In this document: piece by piece, positions 35,435 through 40,195 of the stretch
Layout: every line of letters starts with the position of its first letter
Numbering within the stretch: the stretch's first letter is position 1
Assembly: GCA_944384205.1 (NCBI GenBank)
Contig: CALWSL010000001.1
Location: 186,001-250,000 of the forward strand
Direction: 5' to 3'
Length of the DNA: 64,000 nt
From: an uncultured Acetatifactor sp.
GTDB lineage: Bacteria; Bacillota; Clostridia; Lachnospirales; Lachnospiraceae
The notes under the pieces: model-generated
Seen by the model: only the letters and a program-made list of their open reading frames with translations
Databases searched by the model: none
What the model was told of the DNA's origin: nothing
Made by a program: the position numbers and the translations under genes

Positions 35435-36445
35435 TTAGAACTTGCCTTCCTTAGCAGCTTCCTCAATCGAAACAGCAACCGCAACAGTCATACCAACCAT
35501 AGGGTTGTTGCCTGCGCCGATAAGTCCCATCATCTCTACATGAGCAGGAACGGAAGAAGAACCTGCAAACTGTGCATCGGAGTGCATACGTCCCATGGTA
35601 TCGGTCATACCGTAGGAAGCAGGACCTGCTGCCATGTTGTCAGGATGAAGGGTACGACCTGTACCGCCGCCGGAAGCAACGGAGAAATATTTCTTACCCT
35701 GCTCAAGACATTCTTTCTTGTAAGTACCTGCAACAGGATGCTGGAATCTGGTAGGGTTGGTGGAGTTACCGGTAATGGAAACGTCTACACCTTCCTTGTG
35801 CATGATTGCAACACCTTCGCAAACATCGTTGGCACCGTAGCAGTTAACCTTTGCGCGAAGACCGTCGGAATAGGATTTGCGGAATACTTCCTTAACAGTG
35901 TTGGTGTAAGGATCATACTCGGTTTCAACAAAGGTAAATCCGTTAATACGGGAGATAATCTGAGCTGCGTCTTTTCCAAGACCGTTCAGAATAACACGTA
36001 AGGGTTTCTTACGAACCTTGTTCGCTTTCTCGGCAATACCGATAGCGCCCTCAGCAGCTGCAAATGACTCATGTCCTGCCAGAAAGCAGAAGCACTCGGT
36101 CTCCTCCTCCAGAAGCATTTTTCCAAGGTTTCCATGTCCGAGACCTACCTTACGGGTATCGGCAACAGAACCGGGAATACAGAAAGCCTGAAGACCTTCA
36201 CCGATTGCTGCAGCTGCGTCTGCTGCTCTTCTGCACTCCTTCTTGATTGCGATAGCTGCACCTACAATATACGCCCAGCACGCATTCTCAAAGCAGATAG
36301 GCTGGATGCCTTTAATCTGGTTGTATACATCAAGTCCGGCGTCCTTGGTAATTTTCTCAGCTTCCTCGATAGAAGCAATACCATAGCTGTTTAATACGGA
36401 ATTGATTTTGTCAATTCGTCTTTCATATGATTCAAATAATGCCAT
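35435..36445 (-). CDS. GGGtGRT family protein
   Basis: The 336-residue protein is recognised by its name motif GGGTGRT (259-265) and the flanking SVASGGG and LHPDNMAAGPASYGMTDTMGRMHSD. This family is conserved in clostridia and has no established function. Cysteines lie at 51, 56, 71, 89, 118, 120, 202, 209 and 246. GLGHGNLGKML and FLAGHESFAAAEGAIGIAEK suggest nucleotide or substrate loops. It follows the NifU-like gene by 18 bases, as is usual for the family. That pairing suggests a metal or iron-sulfur-linked enzyme reaction, which is inference only. Confidence 0.9.
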   Translation of the reverse strand: MALFESYERRIDKINSVLNSYGIASIEEAEKITKDAGLDVYNQIKGIQPICFENACWAYIVGAAIAIKKECRRAADAAAAIGEGLQAFCIPGSVADTRKVGLGHGNLGKMLLEEETECFCFLAGHESFAAAEGAIGIAEKANKVRKKPLRVILNGLGKDAAQIISRINGFTFVETEYDPYTNTVKEVFRKSYSDGLRAKVNCYGANDVCEGVAIMHKEGVDVSITGNSTNPTRFQHPVAGTYKKECLEQGKKYFSVASGGGTGRTLHPDNMAAGPASYGMTDTMGRMHSDAQFAGSSSVPAHVEMMGLIGAGNNPMVGMTVAVAVSIEEAAKEGKF

Positions 36446-36463
36446 CTTTACTGTCCTCCTATC

Positions 36464-37156
36464 TTATTCCTGTCTGGGGTCGATAATCTTAACTGCGTCA
36501 GCTACACGGCCATACTGCCCCTTAGCCTTCTCCCATGCGGTGTTCGGATCATCACCCTTTTTGATAAAGTCTGTCATCTTGCCGAGACTTACGAACTGAT
36601 AACCGATAATCTGGTCTTCTGCATCCAATGCAATACCGGTTACATAGCCTTCTGCCATCTCAAGGTAACGGGGACCCTTCTTTAAGGTGCCGTACATAGT
36701 ACCAACCTGACTTCTCAGACCCTTTCCAAGATCCTCCAGACCTGCGCCTACAGGAAGTCCGTCCTCAGAAAATGCACTCTGGGAACGACCGTAAACAATC
36801 TGCAGGAACAATTCTCTCATTGCAGTATTAATCGCATCACATACAAGGTCAGTATTTAATGCCTCCATAACGGTTCTGCCGGGTAAAATCTCAGCAGCCA
36901 TAGCCGCAGAATGGGTCATGCCGGAACAGCCGATGGTTTCCACCAAAGCTTCCTGAATGATACCTTCTTTCACATTAAGCGTCAGCTTACATGCACCCTG
37001 CTGAGGAGCACACCAGCCCACACCGTGGGTTAAACCGGAAATATCTTTAACTTCTTTTGCTTTTACCCATTTTGCTTCTTCTGGGATAGGAGCACAACCG
37101 TGATTCACACCCTGTGCTACTGGACACATTTCTTCAACTTCCTTTGAATAAATCAT
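36464..37156 (-). CDS. NifU/IscU-like iron-sulfur scaffold protein
   Basis: The 230-residue protein has a NifU N-terminal/IscU-like core. The canonical scaffold cysteines appear in IGCSGM (C77) and the LVCDAINTAMRELFLQ helix (C106). Extra cysteines C11, C21, C49 and C56 in the N-terminal part may hold additional metal. A distinct C-terminal part (about 125-230) is not found in IscU. The start follows AAAGGAGATTTCAC. It is the first gene of a two-gene operon with GGGtGRT and lies behind a promoter with a perfect dyad. No IscS cysteine desulfurase gene lies in the window, so the sulfur source is not apparent. Confidence 0.85.
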   Translation of the reverse strand: MIYSKEVEEMCPVAQGVNHGCAPIPEEAKWVKAKEVKDISGLTHGVGWCAPQQGACKLTLNVKEGIIQEALVETIGCSGMTHSAAMAAEILPGRTVMEALNTDLVCDAINTAMRELFLQIVYGRSQSAFSEDGLPVGAGLEDLGKGLRSQVGTMYGTLKKGPRYLEMAEGYVTGIALDAEDQIIGYQFVSLGKMTDFIKKGDDPNTAWEKAKGQYGRVADAVKIIDPRQE

Positions 37157-37180
37157 GTGAAATCTCCTTTCAAATCTATA

Positions 37181-37209
37181 CTTATAACACTATTAAGAAA
37201 TAGTGTCAT
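37181..37209 (-). promoter_or_regulatory. Promoter and operator of the NifU-like/GGGtGRT operon
   Basis: On the minus strand, -35 ATGACA (37204-37209), a 17-base spacer and -10 TATAAG (37181-37186), each 5 of 6 to consensus. A perfect inverted repeat ACACTATT-AAGA-AATAGTGT fills the spacer and overlaps the edge of the -35 (37187-37206), exactly where a repressor would block RNA polymerase. Confidence 0.7.
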
Positions 37210-37270: not shown

Positions 37271-37393
37271 GTCTATGCCAATATCATCCGGTCATAAACG
37301 ACCGGGGTTCACTGTTTTCATCCTATGCAAGTATCATCCGGTCATAAACGACCGGGGTTCACTGTTTTCATCCTATGCAAGTATCATCCGGTC
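37271..37393. repeat. Tandem 50-bp direct repeats duplicating the ABC ATPase gene end
   Basis: Two 50-base units lie head to tail (37271-37320 and 37321-37370) and differ only in their first eleven bases. A third, partial copy (37371-37393, 23 identical bases) is the stop codon and last seven or so codons of the ABC ATPase gene. Each full unit holds an 18-base hairpin sequence, CCGGTC-N6-GACCGG. The repeats therefore arose by tandem duplication of the gene end and lie between the ABC operon and the NifU-like promoter. They may act as terminator-like or transcript-end structures. Confidence 0.85.
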
Positions 37394-38176
37394 GTTGGCA
37401 AATTCAGAACCGCTCACTTCTTCAAATTTCGACAGCAAATCCTTTACCTGAAGCTTCTGCTTCTCCTCACCGGATACATCATAAATAACACGTCCCTCGT
37501 GCATCATAATCAGTCTGTTGCCATGTGCGATGGCATCGCGCATATTATGTGTAACCATCATTGCAGTCAAATGATTTTCCTGAATAATCTTATCGCTGAT
37601 TTCCAGCACCTTCGCCGCCGTTTTCGGGTCCAACGCCGCAGTATGTTCATCCAGCAGCAAAAGCTTCGGCTGCTTTAAGGATGCCATCAGCAAGGTGATT
37701 GCCTGCCGCTGACCGCCGGAAAGCAGTCCCACCTTACTGGTCATGCGGTCTTCCAGACCCAAGCCCAGTGTTTTTAATTTTTCGCGGAATTCTTCCCGCT
37801 CCGCTTTGGAGATACCCCAACGCAGGGTTCTGTGTTCCCCTCTTCTGTAGGCAAGCGCCATATTTTCTTCAATATCCATTGTTGCCGCCGTACCGGTCAT
37901 CGGATCCTGAAACACACGTCCAAGATATGCCGCTCTCTTGTGCTCCGACAATCCTGTAATGTCATTTCCGTCAATAATGATTTTGCCCGCATCAATGGGC
38001 CATACTCCTGCGATTGCATTTAAGGTAGTGGATTTTCCAGCTCCGTTTCCGCCGATAATCGTCACGAAATCGCCGGGATTCAAATTGAGATTCACACCGT
38101 TTAATGCAACCTTTTCATTGATGGTTCCGCGATTAAACACTTTATGAACATCTATAATTTCCAATGCGTATGCCAT
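37373..38176 (-). CDS. ABC transporter ATP-binding protein
   Basis: The 267-residue ATPase has Walker A GGNGAGKST (about 42-50), the Q-loop around VFQDP, signature LSGGQRQA (about 152-159), Walker B LLLLDEHTAALD and a switch His in MVTHNM. It starts at the permease stop with TAATG overlap. It energises the importer formed with the permease and the binding lipoprotein. Its 3' end is duplicated just beyond the stop. The ligand of this family (ABC_sub_bind with branched-chain-permease-like subunits) is usually an aromatic amino acid or unknown. Confidence 0.94.
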   Translation of the reverse strand: MAYALEIIDVHKVFNRGTINEKVALNGVNLNLNPGDFVTIIGGNGAGKSTTLNAIAGVWPIDAGKIIIDGNDITGLSEHKRAAYLGRVFQDPMTGTAATMDIEENMALAYRRGEHRTLRWGISKAEREEFREKLKTLGLGLEDRMTSKVGLLSGGQRQAITLLMASLKQPKLLLLDEHTAALDPKTAAKVLEISDKIIQENHLTAMMVTHNMRDAIAHGNRLIMMHEGRVIYDVSGEEKQKLQVKDLLSKFEEVSGSEFANDRMILA

Positions 38177-39120
38177 TACTTAGCCACCCCCTTCTTTAAT
38201 CTTCTCTTCTCCTTCAGATACGGGATTGCCAAAAAGATTGCCACTACAATGGCGGAGAATAATTTCATATCCTCGGAAGGCATCTTAAGCCATAATACAA
38301 ACTGATATACCATATAATAAATAACCGCGCCTAAAATTACGGAAATCAGGGTAAAGCCAAATGCAAACTTTCTTTTGCTTGCAAACTTACCAAACAATAC
38401 TTCTCCGATAATCACCGCAGCCAGACCGATTACGATAGCGCCGCGTCCCATATTTACGTCGGCGGCACCCTGAAACTGGGCATACATCCCACCGCATAAG
38501 CCTACCAGACCGTTGGAAAGCATCAGCGCAAGCACCTTGATAAAATTCGTATTGATGCCCTGGGCTCTCGCCATATTACCGTTGCAGCCGGTTGCACGGA
38601 TAGCATGTCCCTGCTCGGTTCCGAAATACCAATATAAAACAGCTACCAGAACTAACAGGAAAATTATCATACCTGCGAAAAATACAATTCTGCTTATTGC
38701 ATTATCCGTTACATATCTGAGCGAAACAACCAAAGGATAGTTGTCAACGCTGACAGGCTGATTGGATTTGCCCATAATATTCAGGTTAATCGAATACAGC
38801 GATATCTGCGTCAGTATACTTGCCAAAATACCGGGAATACCAAGCAATGTATTCAAAAGTCCTGTAATCAGTCCTGCAAGCATACCTGCCAGGAAAGCAA
38901 CAGGGAGGGAAACGACAGGCGATACGCCTGCGCGAATCAGCATAACACTCACCGCAGCGCCGGTTGCGATAGATCCGTCAACCGTCAAATCGGCAAAATC
39001 AAGCAGCCGGAAAGTTATGTACACTCCTAATGCCATAATCCCCCAAATCATACCCTGTGCAATGGACCCCGGCAGTGCGCGAAACAGAGAAACAGGGTTC
39101 AAAGACATAAAATACTCCAT
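38176..39120 (-). CDS. ABC transporter permease
   Basis: The 314-residue membrane protein has about eight to nine helices and the fold of branched-chain amino-acid or sugar permeases. The GIMALGVYITFRLLDFADLTVDGS segment (about 28-51) is typical of permeases paired with ABC_sub_bind proteins such as TrpXYZ. The C-terminal EKRRLKKGVAK tail is basic. The start follows GAGGAGGAAAGAAA, and the last base overlaps the ATPase start, so the genes are translationally coupled. Confidence 0.93.
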   Translation of the reverse strand: MEYFMSLNPVSLFRALPGSIAQGMIWGIMALGVYITFRLLDFADLTVDGSIATGAAVSVMLIRAGVSPVVSLPVAFLAGMLAGLITGLLNTLLGIPGILASILTQISLYSINLNIMGKSNQPVSVDNYPLVVSLRYVTDNAISRIVFFAGMIIFLLVLVAVLYWYFGTEQGHAIRATGCNGNMARAQGINTNFIKVLALMLSNGLVGLCGGMYAQFQGAADVNMGRGAIVIGLAAVIIGEVLFGKFASKRKFAFGFTLISVILGAVIYYMVYQFVLWLKMPSEDMKLFSAIVVAIFLAIPYLKEKRRLKKGVAK

Positions 39121-39229
39121 TTTCTTTCCTCCTCAAAATATTCATAAAACATCAGATAGGGATACCGTAAAGTTACGCCATCCCTATCAATATTTTCATA
39201 TATAAAACATATGAAATTGTATCAACGCT

Positions 39230-40195
39230 TTACTCTTCCGTTGCGATTGCTTCGTAACCATCAGGAACCGTAATTCCCAATTCTTCACAAATCTTTGCAT
39301 TATACTTTTTGGTAACATTCGGTGCATAACGGACATCCATGGTAGAAACATCCTTGCCCTCTGCCAGAATCTCGTAAGCCATTTCTCCGGTTGTATAACC
39401 AAGGTCATAATAGCTGATGGATAAGGTTGCAACGCCGCAAACGCTGCAGATACCTTCTTCTCCTGCAATAACGGGAACCTTGGCAGGACCTACTACATTG
39501 TAAATTGTTTCCGTAACGGAAGCCAATGTATTGTCCGTCGGAATATAAAGTACATCGCAGTCTGCGATTGCCGCAGTAACAACTGACTGTACTTCATTGG
39601 TGTCTGCAACTGCATATTCTTTGTATGCAATACCGTCTGCTTGAAGAGCAGCTGCAAACAACTGAATCTGGTATAAGGAATTGGGTTCTGCGGAACAATA
39701 TAAAAGTCCTACCTGTTTTGCATCAGGAAACAATTCCACAAGCATATCTTCCTGTTCCTCAATCGGCGCCAAATCGGAAGTACCGGATATATTTCTGCCG
39801 GTAGAGCCGGACCAGTCAGCAATTTCCAGAGCGGTTGCATAATCTGTTACAGAAGTGCCCAAAATGGGAATTGATGTGGTAGCAGCTGCCGCACTCTGCA
39901 AAGGAGAGGTTGCATTTGCCAGAATCAAATCAACGCCATCCGAAACAAATCCATTACAGATTGTTGCGCACGCAGTCTGCTCATTCTGCGCATTCTGCTC
40001 GTAAAAAGTAACTTTGTCACCCAGCTTATCCGTCAATGCGTCCTTGAATCCCTGAGTAGCAGCATCCAATGCAGGATGTTCCACCAACTGACAGATACCA
40101 ATCTCATAGCCTTCTTCAGCGCTGTCGCCGCAGCCGGTCAGCATGGACACTGCCATTGCCGCAACAAGCAAAACAGAAAATAATTTCTTTCTCAT
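39230..40195 (-). CDS. ABC transporter substrate-binding lipoprotein (ABC_sub_bind family)
   Basis: The 321-residue lipoprotein has an N-terminal signal and lipobox (MLTGC near residue 22). Two Rossmann-like lobes follow, with EIGICQLVEHPALDAATQGFKDAL, PLQSAAAATTSIPILGTSVTDY and the later EQEDMLVELFPDAKQVGLLY. This is the binding protein of the importer. Homologues bind aromatic amino acids in some Firmicutes, but the specificity here is unknown. No T-box leader is present. The start follows GGGAGGAAATTAGA. Confidence 0.93.
   Translation of the reverse strand: MRKKLFSVLLVAAMAVSMLTGCGDSAEEGYEIGICQLVEHPALDAATQGFKDALTDKLGDKVTFYEQNAQNEQTACATICNGFVSDGVDLILANATSPLQSAAAATTSIPILGTSVTDYATALEIADWSGSTGRNISGTSDLAPIEEQEDMLVELFPDAKQVGLLYCSAEPNSLYQIQLFAAALQADGIAYKEYAVADTNEVQSVVTAAIADCDVLYIPTDNTLASVTETIYNVVGPAKVPVIAGEEGICSVCGVATLSISYYDLGYTTGEMAYEILAEGKDVSTMDVRYAPNVTKKYNAKICEELGITVPDGYEAIATEE

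Follow-up and report, generated by a model that had tools for sequence, protein, structure and literature searches.

A putative iron-dependent alternative enolase encoded by paired NifU-like and GGGtGRT genes of gut and rumen bacteria

Introduction

Adjacent genes for a NifU-like protein and for a protein of the GGGtGRT family are present in a 64,000-nucleotide stretch of DNA from an uncultured Acetatifactor species of the Lachnospiraceae (contig CALWSL010000001.1, positions 186,001 to 250,000), which is referred to below as the window. We consider it likely that the two proteins constitute an alternative, iron-dependent enolase with no sequence relationship to the classical enzyme, because this assignment accounts for four independent facts: the distribution of the pair among genomes, its place in operons, the fluoride riboswitches at some of its loci and its response to iron, which is opposite to that of enolase. 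The NifU-like gene (36464..37156, minus strand) encodes 230 amino acids, with an IscU-related domain at about residues 33-102 and a family-specific C-terminal part, and the GGGtGRT gene (35435..36445, minus strand) encodes 336 amino acids and was identified by its Pfam profile match (PF14057). The gap of 18 bases between them (36446..36463, minus strand), read directly from the sequence, is consistent with co-translation from a single transcript. Both genes and their spacing had been described correctly in an earlier, sequence-only reading of this DNA, which left the function open and suggested that the pair may build or use a metal, iron-sulphur (Fe-S) or selenium cofactor on a dedicated substrate. 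The evidence presented here favours an alternative enolase that depends on iron over a system whose purpose is cofactor assembly itself.

Enolase has been held to be among the most universal of enzymes. In the Hungate1000 study it was described as conserved throughout the domains of life, with under 0.5% of over 30,000 isolates lacking it (PMC6118326). Butyrivibrio proteoclasticus B316 was described as enolase-less in 2010 (PMC2914790), followed in 2012 by Oscillibacter valericigenes, for which the authors proposed an alternative enolase-like enzyme (PMC3558957), and in 2018 by about half of the Butyrivibrio and some Prevotella and Lachnospiraceae (PMC6118326). The missing enzyme was followed up in 2019 and 2020 (PMC6912079, PMC7523725) and reviews of 2023 and 2024 still present the gap as unexplained (PMC11026938, PMC11187502); publications of 2010, 2012, 2018, 2023 and 2024 have thus described as unclear how bacteria without enolase run glycolysis. 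No publication proposing the pair as an enolase turned up in the literature searched, which covered few subscription journals and preprints and is no proof of absence.

A Strict Two-Gene Unit

Among 299 genomes of the phylum of the window, the Bacillota (the phylum set), GGGtGRT occurs in 19 genomes with a total of 20 copies. A profile of the NifU-like protein scores above 410 bits in those same 19 genomes, again with 20 copies, and no other score exceeds 34.8. The NifU-like gene was found on the same strand at 119 of 125 GGGtGRT loci and the neighbour was not visible at the other six, because GGGtGRT starts there at most 223 nt from the end of the stretch. The two genes are a strict two-gene unit, paired far beyond chance, and the earlier suggestion of a dedicated, undescribed system is supported.

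The co-occurrence reaches well past close relatives and into other phyla. Named plasmid and secondary-replicon records, from which the occurrences in other phyla were drawn, yielded the pair in Parabacteroides, Bacteroides, Phocaeicola, Persicobacter, Collinsella, Subdoligranulum and Vibrio. GGGtGRT had been termed a clostridial family, and it is indeed present in clostridia, but the pair occurs also in records of Bacteroidota, Actinomycetota and Pseudomonadota. A scan of genome contigs, of which the best 80 of 583 matches were used and which is biased towards Lachnospiraceae, placed the closest named relatives of the window pair in the Lachnospiraceae, and these 80 include the pairs of two Butyrivibrio assemblies (L089 and L091). 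The GGGtGRT protein of Pseudobutyrivibrio ruminis is included in a published rumen metaproteome (PMC7035244). A conserved third gene, for which a search had been recommended, did not emerge: none is common across 88 loci, and the next clusters, in 30 and 29 of the 88, are almost all due to Lachnospiraceae-type synteny.

Further observations concern three genomes. Genome G266, which lacks enolase, carries in addition to a typical copy a second, divergent pair (L192, 5738-7441), about 61% identical to that of the window, which is possibly a paralogue with another substrate; a neighbouring gene resembles, by eye, the large subunit of isopropylmalate dehydratase. In Parabacteroides distasonis the NifU-like gene is separated from GGGtGRT by a small annotated hypothetical gene of 63 amino acids (L120, 5800-5991), and a ferredoxin-nitroreductase gene then follows. 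In the pair-positive genome G329 (L100, L198), the clostridial NifU profile has a single, weak match (E 5.5e-6), which is probably the NifU-like protein of the pair itself; no canonical U-type scaffold was seen.

Complementarity with Classical Enolase

The family set comprised 299 genomes of the family of the window, of which 246 were considered good (at least 90% complete and at most 5% contaminated). The pair and enolase (PF00113) each occur in 242 of the 299 genomes, with some of the counted enolase matches scoring poorly or being incomplete (that of G621, for instance, has E 9e-5). Among the good genomes, 167 carry both, 38 the pair only, 39 enolase only and two neither, where 6.7 were expected (P 0.019; this and the following P values treat genomes as independent, though their ancestry is shared). 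For the 171 genomes that are at least 97% complete, the corresponding numbers are 118, 28, 25 and zero, with 4.1 expected for the last (P 0.008). Either enolase or the pair is therefore present in 244 of the 246 good genomes, and the pair was found in 38 of the 40 good genomes lacking enolase and in all 28 such genomes at the higher completeness. The Hungate authors contrasted Butyrivibrio with and without enolase in search of a gene that compensates for the loss, and reported no substantial insight (PMC6118326). Such a comparison would miss the pair if it were present in both groups; in the family set, 167 of the 246 good genomes carry both the pair and enolase.

Enolase is missing from 16 of the 299 genomes of the phylum set, comprising 6 of the 19 pair-positive and 10 of the 280 pair-negative genomes (P 1.6e-4). 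When limited to good genomes, the fractions are 4 of 17 and 5 of 250 (P 0.0012), and the pair is found in four of the nine good genomes without enolase. The sole three enolase-less genomes that are 100% complete with 0% contamination are all pair-positive. An unusual lower glycolysis was seen in G430 of the family set, estimated to be 100% complete, where the pair is present and enolase, pyruvate kinase and iPGM are all unmatched by these profiles.

Gene Context and Fluoride Riboswitches

In the six pair-positive genomes of another family, f58 (G089, G204, G233, G283, G307 and G331), gpmI lies directly upstream of the pair; the gene order is gapA-pgk-tpi-gpmI-NifU-like-GGGtGRT in G204 and G307, and pyk lies directly downstream in G233 and G307. 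A place between gpmI and pyk is a common location of eno. All six genomes carry enolase elsewhere too. In Clostridium sp. D43t1 the pair lies next to a classical enolase gene, which is divergently oriented.

According to a 2024 review, enolase is inhibited by fluoride, with a Ki of about 80 µM, and its gene is often found in fluoride-riboswitch operons (PMC11139923). An Rfam scan of 28 pair loci together with the window revealed six fluoride riboswitches (RF01734). Four of these, from G185, G245, Persicobacter and Vibrio, are on the strand of the pair and 44-112 nt 5' of the NifU-like ATG; they span three phyla, with G185 and G245 belonging to two Bacillota families, and a simple estimate for four of six matches being so placed is about 7e-9. 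The fifth (G149) lies 828 nt 5' of the NifU-like ATG with one open reading frame between, and the sixth is downstream of the pair. Moreover, crcB-crcB-DUF190 follows the pair in G149, G185 and G245. In three Bacillota families the pair belongs to operons of the Crc/Fluc fluoride resistance type (crcB, DUF190, RF01734), which it also resembles in Persicobacter and Vibrio by being under the riboswitch. The DUF190 protein of one fluoride operon (L196, 5575-5913) matches P-II weakly, at 24 bits against a cut-off of 25.

Opposite Responses to Iron

Published expression data link the pair to iron. In the proteome of Clostridium pasteurianum, GGGtGRT was reported to be higher with iron, 7.1-fold early and 2.2-fold late, and NifU was also higher, by up to 3.7 early and 2.9 late, while the two enolase spots were more abundant in its absence (4.1- and 4.8-fold early, 4.0- and 1.8-fold late) (PMC5395762). 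In Bacteroides thetaiotaomicron, the pair (BT0173-74) was reported to fall 11- to 12.8-fold on iron depletion and the group BT4570-72, which includes eno, to rise 2.0- to 7.7-fold (PMC10434189). The pair and enolase thus move oppositely in two phyla. Iron-dependent expression in both, together with three invariant cysteines on the IscU-related domain (see below), lends support to the iron or Fe-S part of the earlier cofactor proposal, and such a cofactor is probable; no sign of a role for selenium was seen, and no test was aimed at it.

Weighing an Enolase Role

Several observations weigh against the assignment of the pair as an enolase. Most pair carriers have enolase too, the pair is restricted to a small minority (19) of the phylum-set genomes, and ten enolase-less genomes of that set (61-97% complete) are without it. 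Of the good enolase-less genomes in the family set, two, G364 (96% complete) and G433 (91%), also lack the pair. The deficit of family genomes with neither is not significant at a completeness of at least 99%, where the trend is the same (0 against 1.5 expected, P 0.18), or across all 299 genomes with the incomplete ones included (8 against 10.9 expected, P 0.35). The glycolytic gene context is limited to one family; a fluoride riboswitch precedes the pair in only 5 of the 28 loci, leaving 23 without, in which they differ from the Crc/Fluc operons, and the Rfam scan detected none in the window. For B. thetaiotaomicron, the change in eno is available as a group range only, with P 0.144 (PMC10434189). 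Pyruvate kinase is absent from 9 of the 28 pair-only family genomes that are at least 97% complete, and G430 lacks iPGM as well. Finally, Kelly et al. found enolase activity to be very low in extracts of the enolase-less Butyrivibrio B316 (PMC2914790), which argues against an enolase unless the assay, for which the available text mentions no anoxic handling, destroyed the enzyme.

Given the nine genomes without pyruvate kinase, a route leading directly to pyruvate is conceivable. The pair could be an enzyme that depends on iron and serves lower glycolysis or fluoride tolerance without being a true enolase, for example by converting 2-phosphoglycerate or glycerate to pyruvate, or by acting as a fluoride-resistant form of another enzyme such as pyrophosphatase, which is likewise inhibited by fluoride (PMC11139923). 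However, the position between gpmI and pyk, the complementarity with enolase and the opposite iron regulation fit an enolase more simply, and pyruvate kinase is retained in the other 19 of the 28 genomes, which makes this alternative unlikely. Moreover, cells need phosphoenolpyruvate (PEP) for further pathways.

It has also to be considered whether enolase-less bacteria bypass the step by other means, with the pair playing no part. The methylglyoxal shunt was proposed for Butyrivibrio B316, and the very low activity of its extract would accord with such a bypass (PMC2914790). Later reviews pointed out, however, that the set of shunt enzymes encoded is incomplete and that this route would consume ATP (PMC11026938, PMC11187502), and iPGM, which produces 2-phosphoglycerate, is retained in 26 of the 28 enolase-less pair genomes; we regard a bypass as quite improbable.

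The NifU-Like Protein

If the pair is an enolase, its iron is most readily placed on the NifU-like protein. The plain label of a NifU-N scaffold, applied in the sequence-only reading, did not hold, since the protein falls under every curated NifU/IscU cut-off examined: it scores 20.7 bits against NifU_N PF01592 (cut-off 22; residues 55-113), 25 against TIGR03419 (cut-off 187.9), 21.1 against TIGR01999 (cut-off 192.4) and 19 against TIGR01994 (cut-off 92.5). Homology to IscU was detected with hhalign over residues 33-102 (probability 95.6%, E 1.2e-8), with a score of 57.6 compared with at most 20.9 in 40 column shuffles, and a search of solved structures with the NifU-like protein returned IscU-type relatives only. 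At 230 amino acids it is larger than IscU, NifU-N and SufU proteins (about 120-140; PF01592, TIGR03419), and the long C-terminal part that had been noted as absent from IscU corresponds to about 100 additional, family-specific residues. An internal repeat was considered for the NifU-like protein but found no support: the best alignment lay at the position expected of a repeat, but its score of 13.3 was within the range of 60 column shuffles (up to 15.3) and under the reversed control (14.8).

Cysteines C49, C77 and C106 are invariant in all 115 near-full-length NifU-like proteins, and C56 is present in 111, C11 in 102 and C21 in 30, so that of the extra N-terminal cysteines singled out earlier (C11, C21, C49 and C56) all except C21 are well conserved. 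In the alignment C77 corresponds to the GC-motif cysteine of IscU, whereas the first IscU cysteine is replaced by an invariant Gln53, with the new invariant Cys49 lying four residues earlier. The aspartate beside the first IscU cysteine is gone from 18 of 18 aligned NifU-like proteins, which carry Gln53-Gly54 followed by Ala, Thr, Gly or Cys, in contrast to the CGD of 31 of 31 canonical proteins. In IscU lacking that aspartate, clusters are stabilised on the protein. From this loss we infer that the NifU-like protein is a cluster-carrying subunit on which an Fe-S cluster would be held and not passed on.

The same features bear on a narrower form of the earlier proposal, in which the NifU-like protein serves as a dedicated scaffold, either building an Fe-S cluster for GGGtGRT or another client or delivering it there. 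Although the IscU homology and the strict pairing would suit a scaffold, the aspartate is lost, and the HscA-type motif before the third cysteine, LPP[VI][KR], occurs in none of 120 NifU-like proteins of the pair (the strict pattern is found in only 14 of 31 canonical clostridial ones). Furthermore, GGGtGRT offers no invariant cysteine to accept a cluster, and the NifU-like protein is reported as abundant or highly expressed in gut and rumen proteomes, where the names may cover other NifU proteins. A dedicated scaffold is, on this evidence, very unlikely.

The GGGtGRT Protein

The GGGtGRT protein matches PF14057 with 633.8 bits (cut-off 27) over residues 4-330. In 124 sequences, 100 columns are invariant, and they are rich in Gly, His, Glu, Asp, Arg and Lys. 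The nine cysteines reported for the window protein were counted correctly but none is invariant among these sequences, the best being C118 in 121 of 124, and the idea that they contribute to a shared cluster site was not sustained. As an alternative enolase, the pair would need a substrate pocket, and GGGtGRT may supply it as the substrate-binding or catalytic subunit. That the pair instead acts as a store or buffer of iron or Fe-S clusters under iron-rich conditions is scarcely credible: the strong induction with iron in two phyla would fit a store, but the gpmI-pair-pyk order, the fluoride riboswitches and the enolase-less genomes would be left unexplained, and the extreme conservation of GGGtGRT resembles that of an active site.

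Searches of solved structures and profiles yielded no credible relative of known function for GGGtGRT, and a Pfam scan to E 1 gave no enolase match (PF00113) for either protein of the pair. A thiamine pyrophosphate (TPP)-enzyme fold was examined because of a weak NCBIfam transketolase match (E 2.3e-4, in 1 of 18 members) and a resemblance between motifs. It was rejected: hhalign against 25 transketolases (Transketolase_N) gave a probability of 0.2%, and the NCBIfam match concerned one protein at residues 155-229, away from the suspected motif. A PlsX-type fold (hhalign probability 0.2%) and internal repeats (at most 2.6%) were rejected likewise.

Proposed Mechanism and Relation to Known Enzymes

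The pair would convert 2-phosphoglycerate to PEP. The NifU-like protein is envisaged as keeping an Fe-S cluster permanently through its three invariant cysteines, and one cluster iron, left open, may bind the carboxylate and the leaving hydroxyl of the substrate, as in aconitase-type or Fe-S serine dehydratases, while GGGtGRT may bind the phosphate and provide the base. Such an enzyme would bypass the Mg-phosphate site at which fluoride blocks classical enolase; it would suit anaerobes with ample iron and would be destroyed by oxygen in ordinary extracts. The genome of the window encodes a single copy of the pair, a canonical clostridial NifU elsewhere and also a classical enolase and, because of the latter, the pair would serve there as the iron-replete isoenzyme.

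With classical enolase (phosphopyruvate hydratase, PF00113, EC 4.2.1.11) the pair would share the proposed reaction, and it has in common with it the gpmI-pyk operon place and, at some loci, the fluoride-riboswitch regulon. It differs in lacking any sequence match, in having two subunits rather than one and in its iron-dependent expression, whereas the Mg enzyme rises in low iron. Fe-S hydro-lyases employ three cysteine ligands and an open iron in the elimination of a beta-hydroxyl. The pair would resemble members of this group (aconitase, class I fumarase and Fe-S L-serine dehydratase) by its proposed working only; no sequence similarity was detected, and its cluster would sit on an IscU-type domain.

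Somewhat less firmly than the enolase assignment itself, we favour a more specific proposal. The pair would probably be an oxygen-labile, fluoride-insensitive, two-subunit Fe-S enolase, in which an IscU-type scaffold has been turned into a cluster-bearing catalytic subunit; it would be encoded by a two-gene cassette that has moved between phyla and be swapped for the Mg enzyme at low iron, and it would close the enolase gap seen in Butyrivibrio, Prevotella, Oscillibacter and further bacteria of the gut and rumen.

Surroundings of the Pair in the Window

The leader of the pair carries a perfect hairpin, ACACTATT-TCTT-AATAGTGT, at 37187-37206, 30 nt 5' of the NifU-like ATG on the minus strand, and unrelated hairpins are frequent at a similar leader position in other pair loci. 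A conserved operator or RNA leader was rejected, as footprinting of 117 upstream regions revealed no common sequence. Folding of 110 leader regions yielded a mean z of -0.95, compared with -0.83 and -0.54 in control stretches, with no clear excess. Upstream of the pair, the genes at 37373-40195 (minus strand) read as an ABC transporter with an ATPase, a permease and a lipoprotein-type binding protein, which appears, by eye, to be TrpXYZ-like or similar; it is outside the conserved context of the pair at the 88 loci. A terminator-like stretch, containing the CCGGTCATAAACGACCGG hairpin, is tandemly duplicated at about 37285-37395, at the end of the adjoining ATPase gene.

Significance

Two protein families of unknown function are given a testable role, which could account for the ability of certain gut and rumen bacteria to do without the usual enolase. 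If the assignment is correct, a core step of glycolysis exists in a second version, based on iron and unrelated to the first, and the pathway annotation of many gut genomes would change. Metagenomics would also gain a marker for iron-linked, fluoride-tolerant sugar fermentation.

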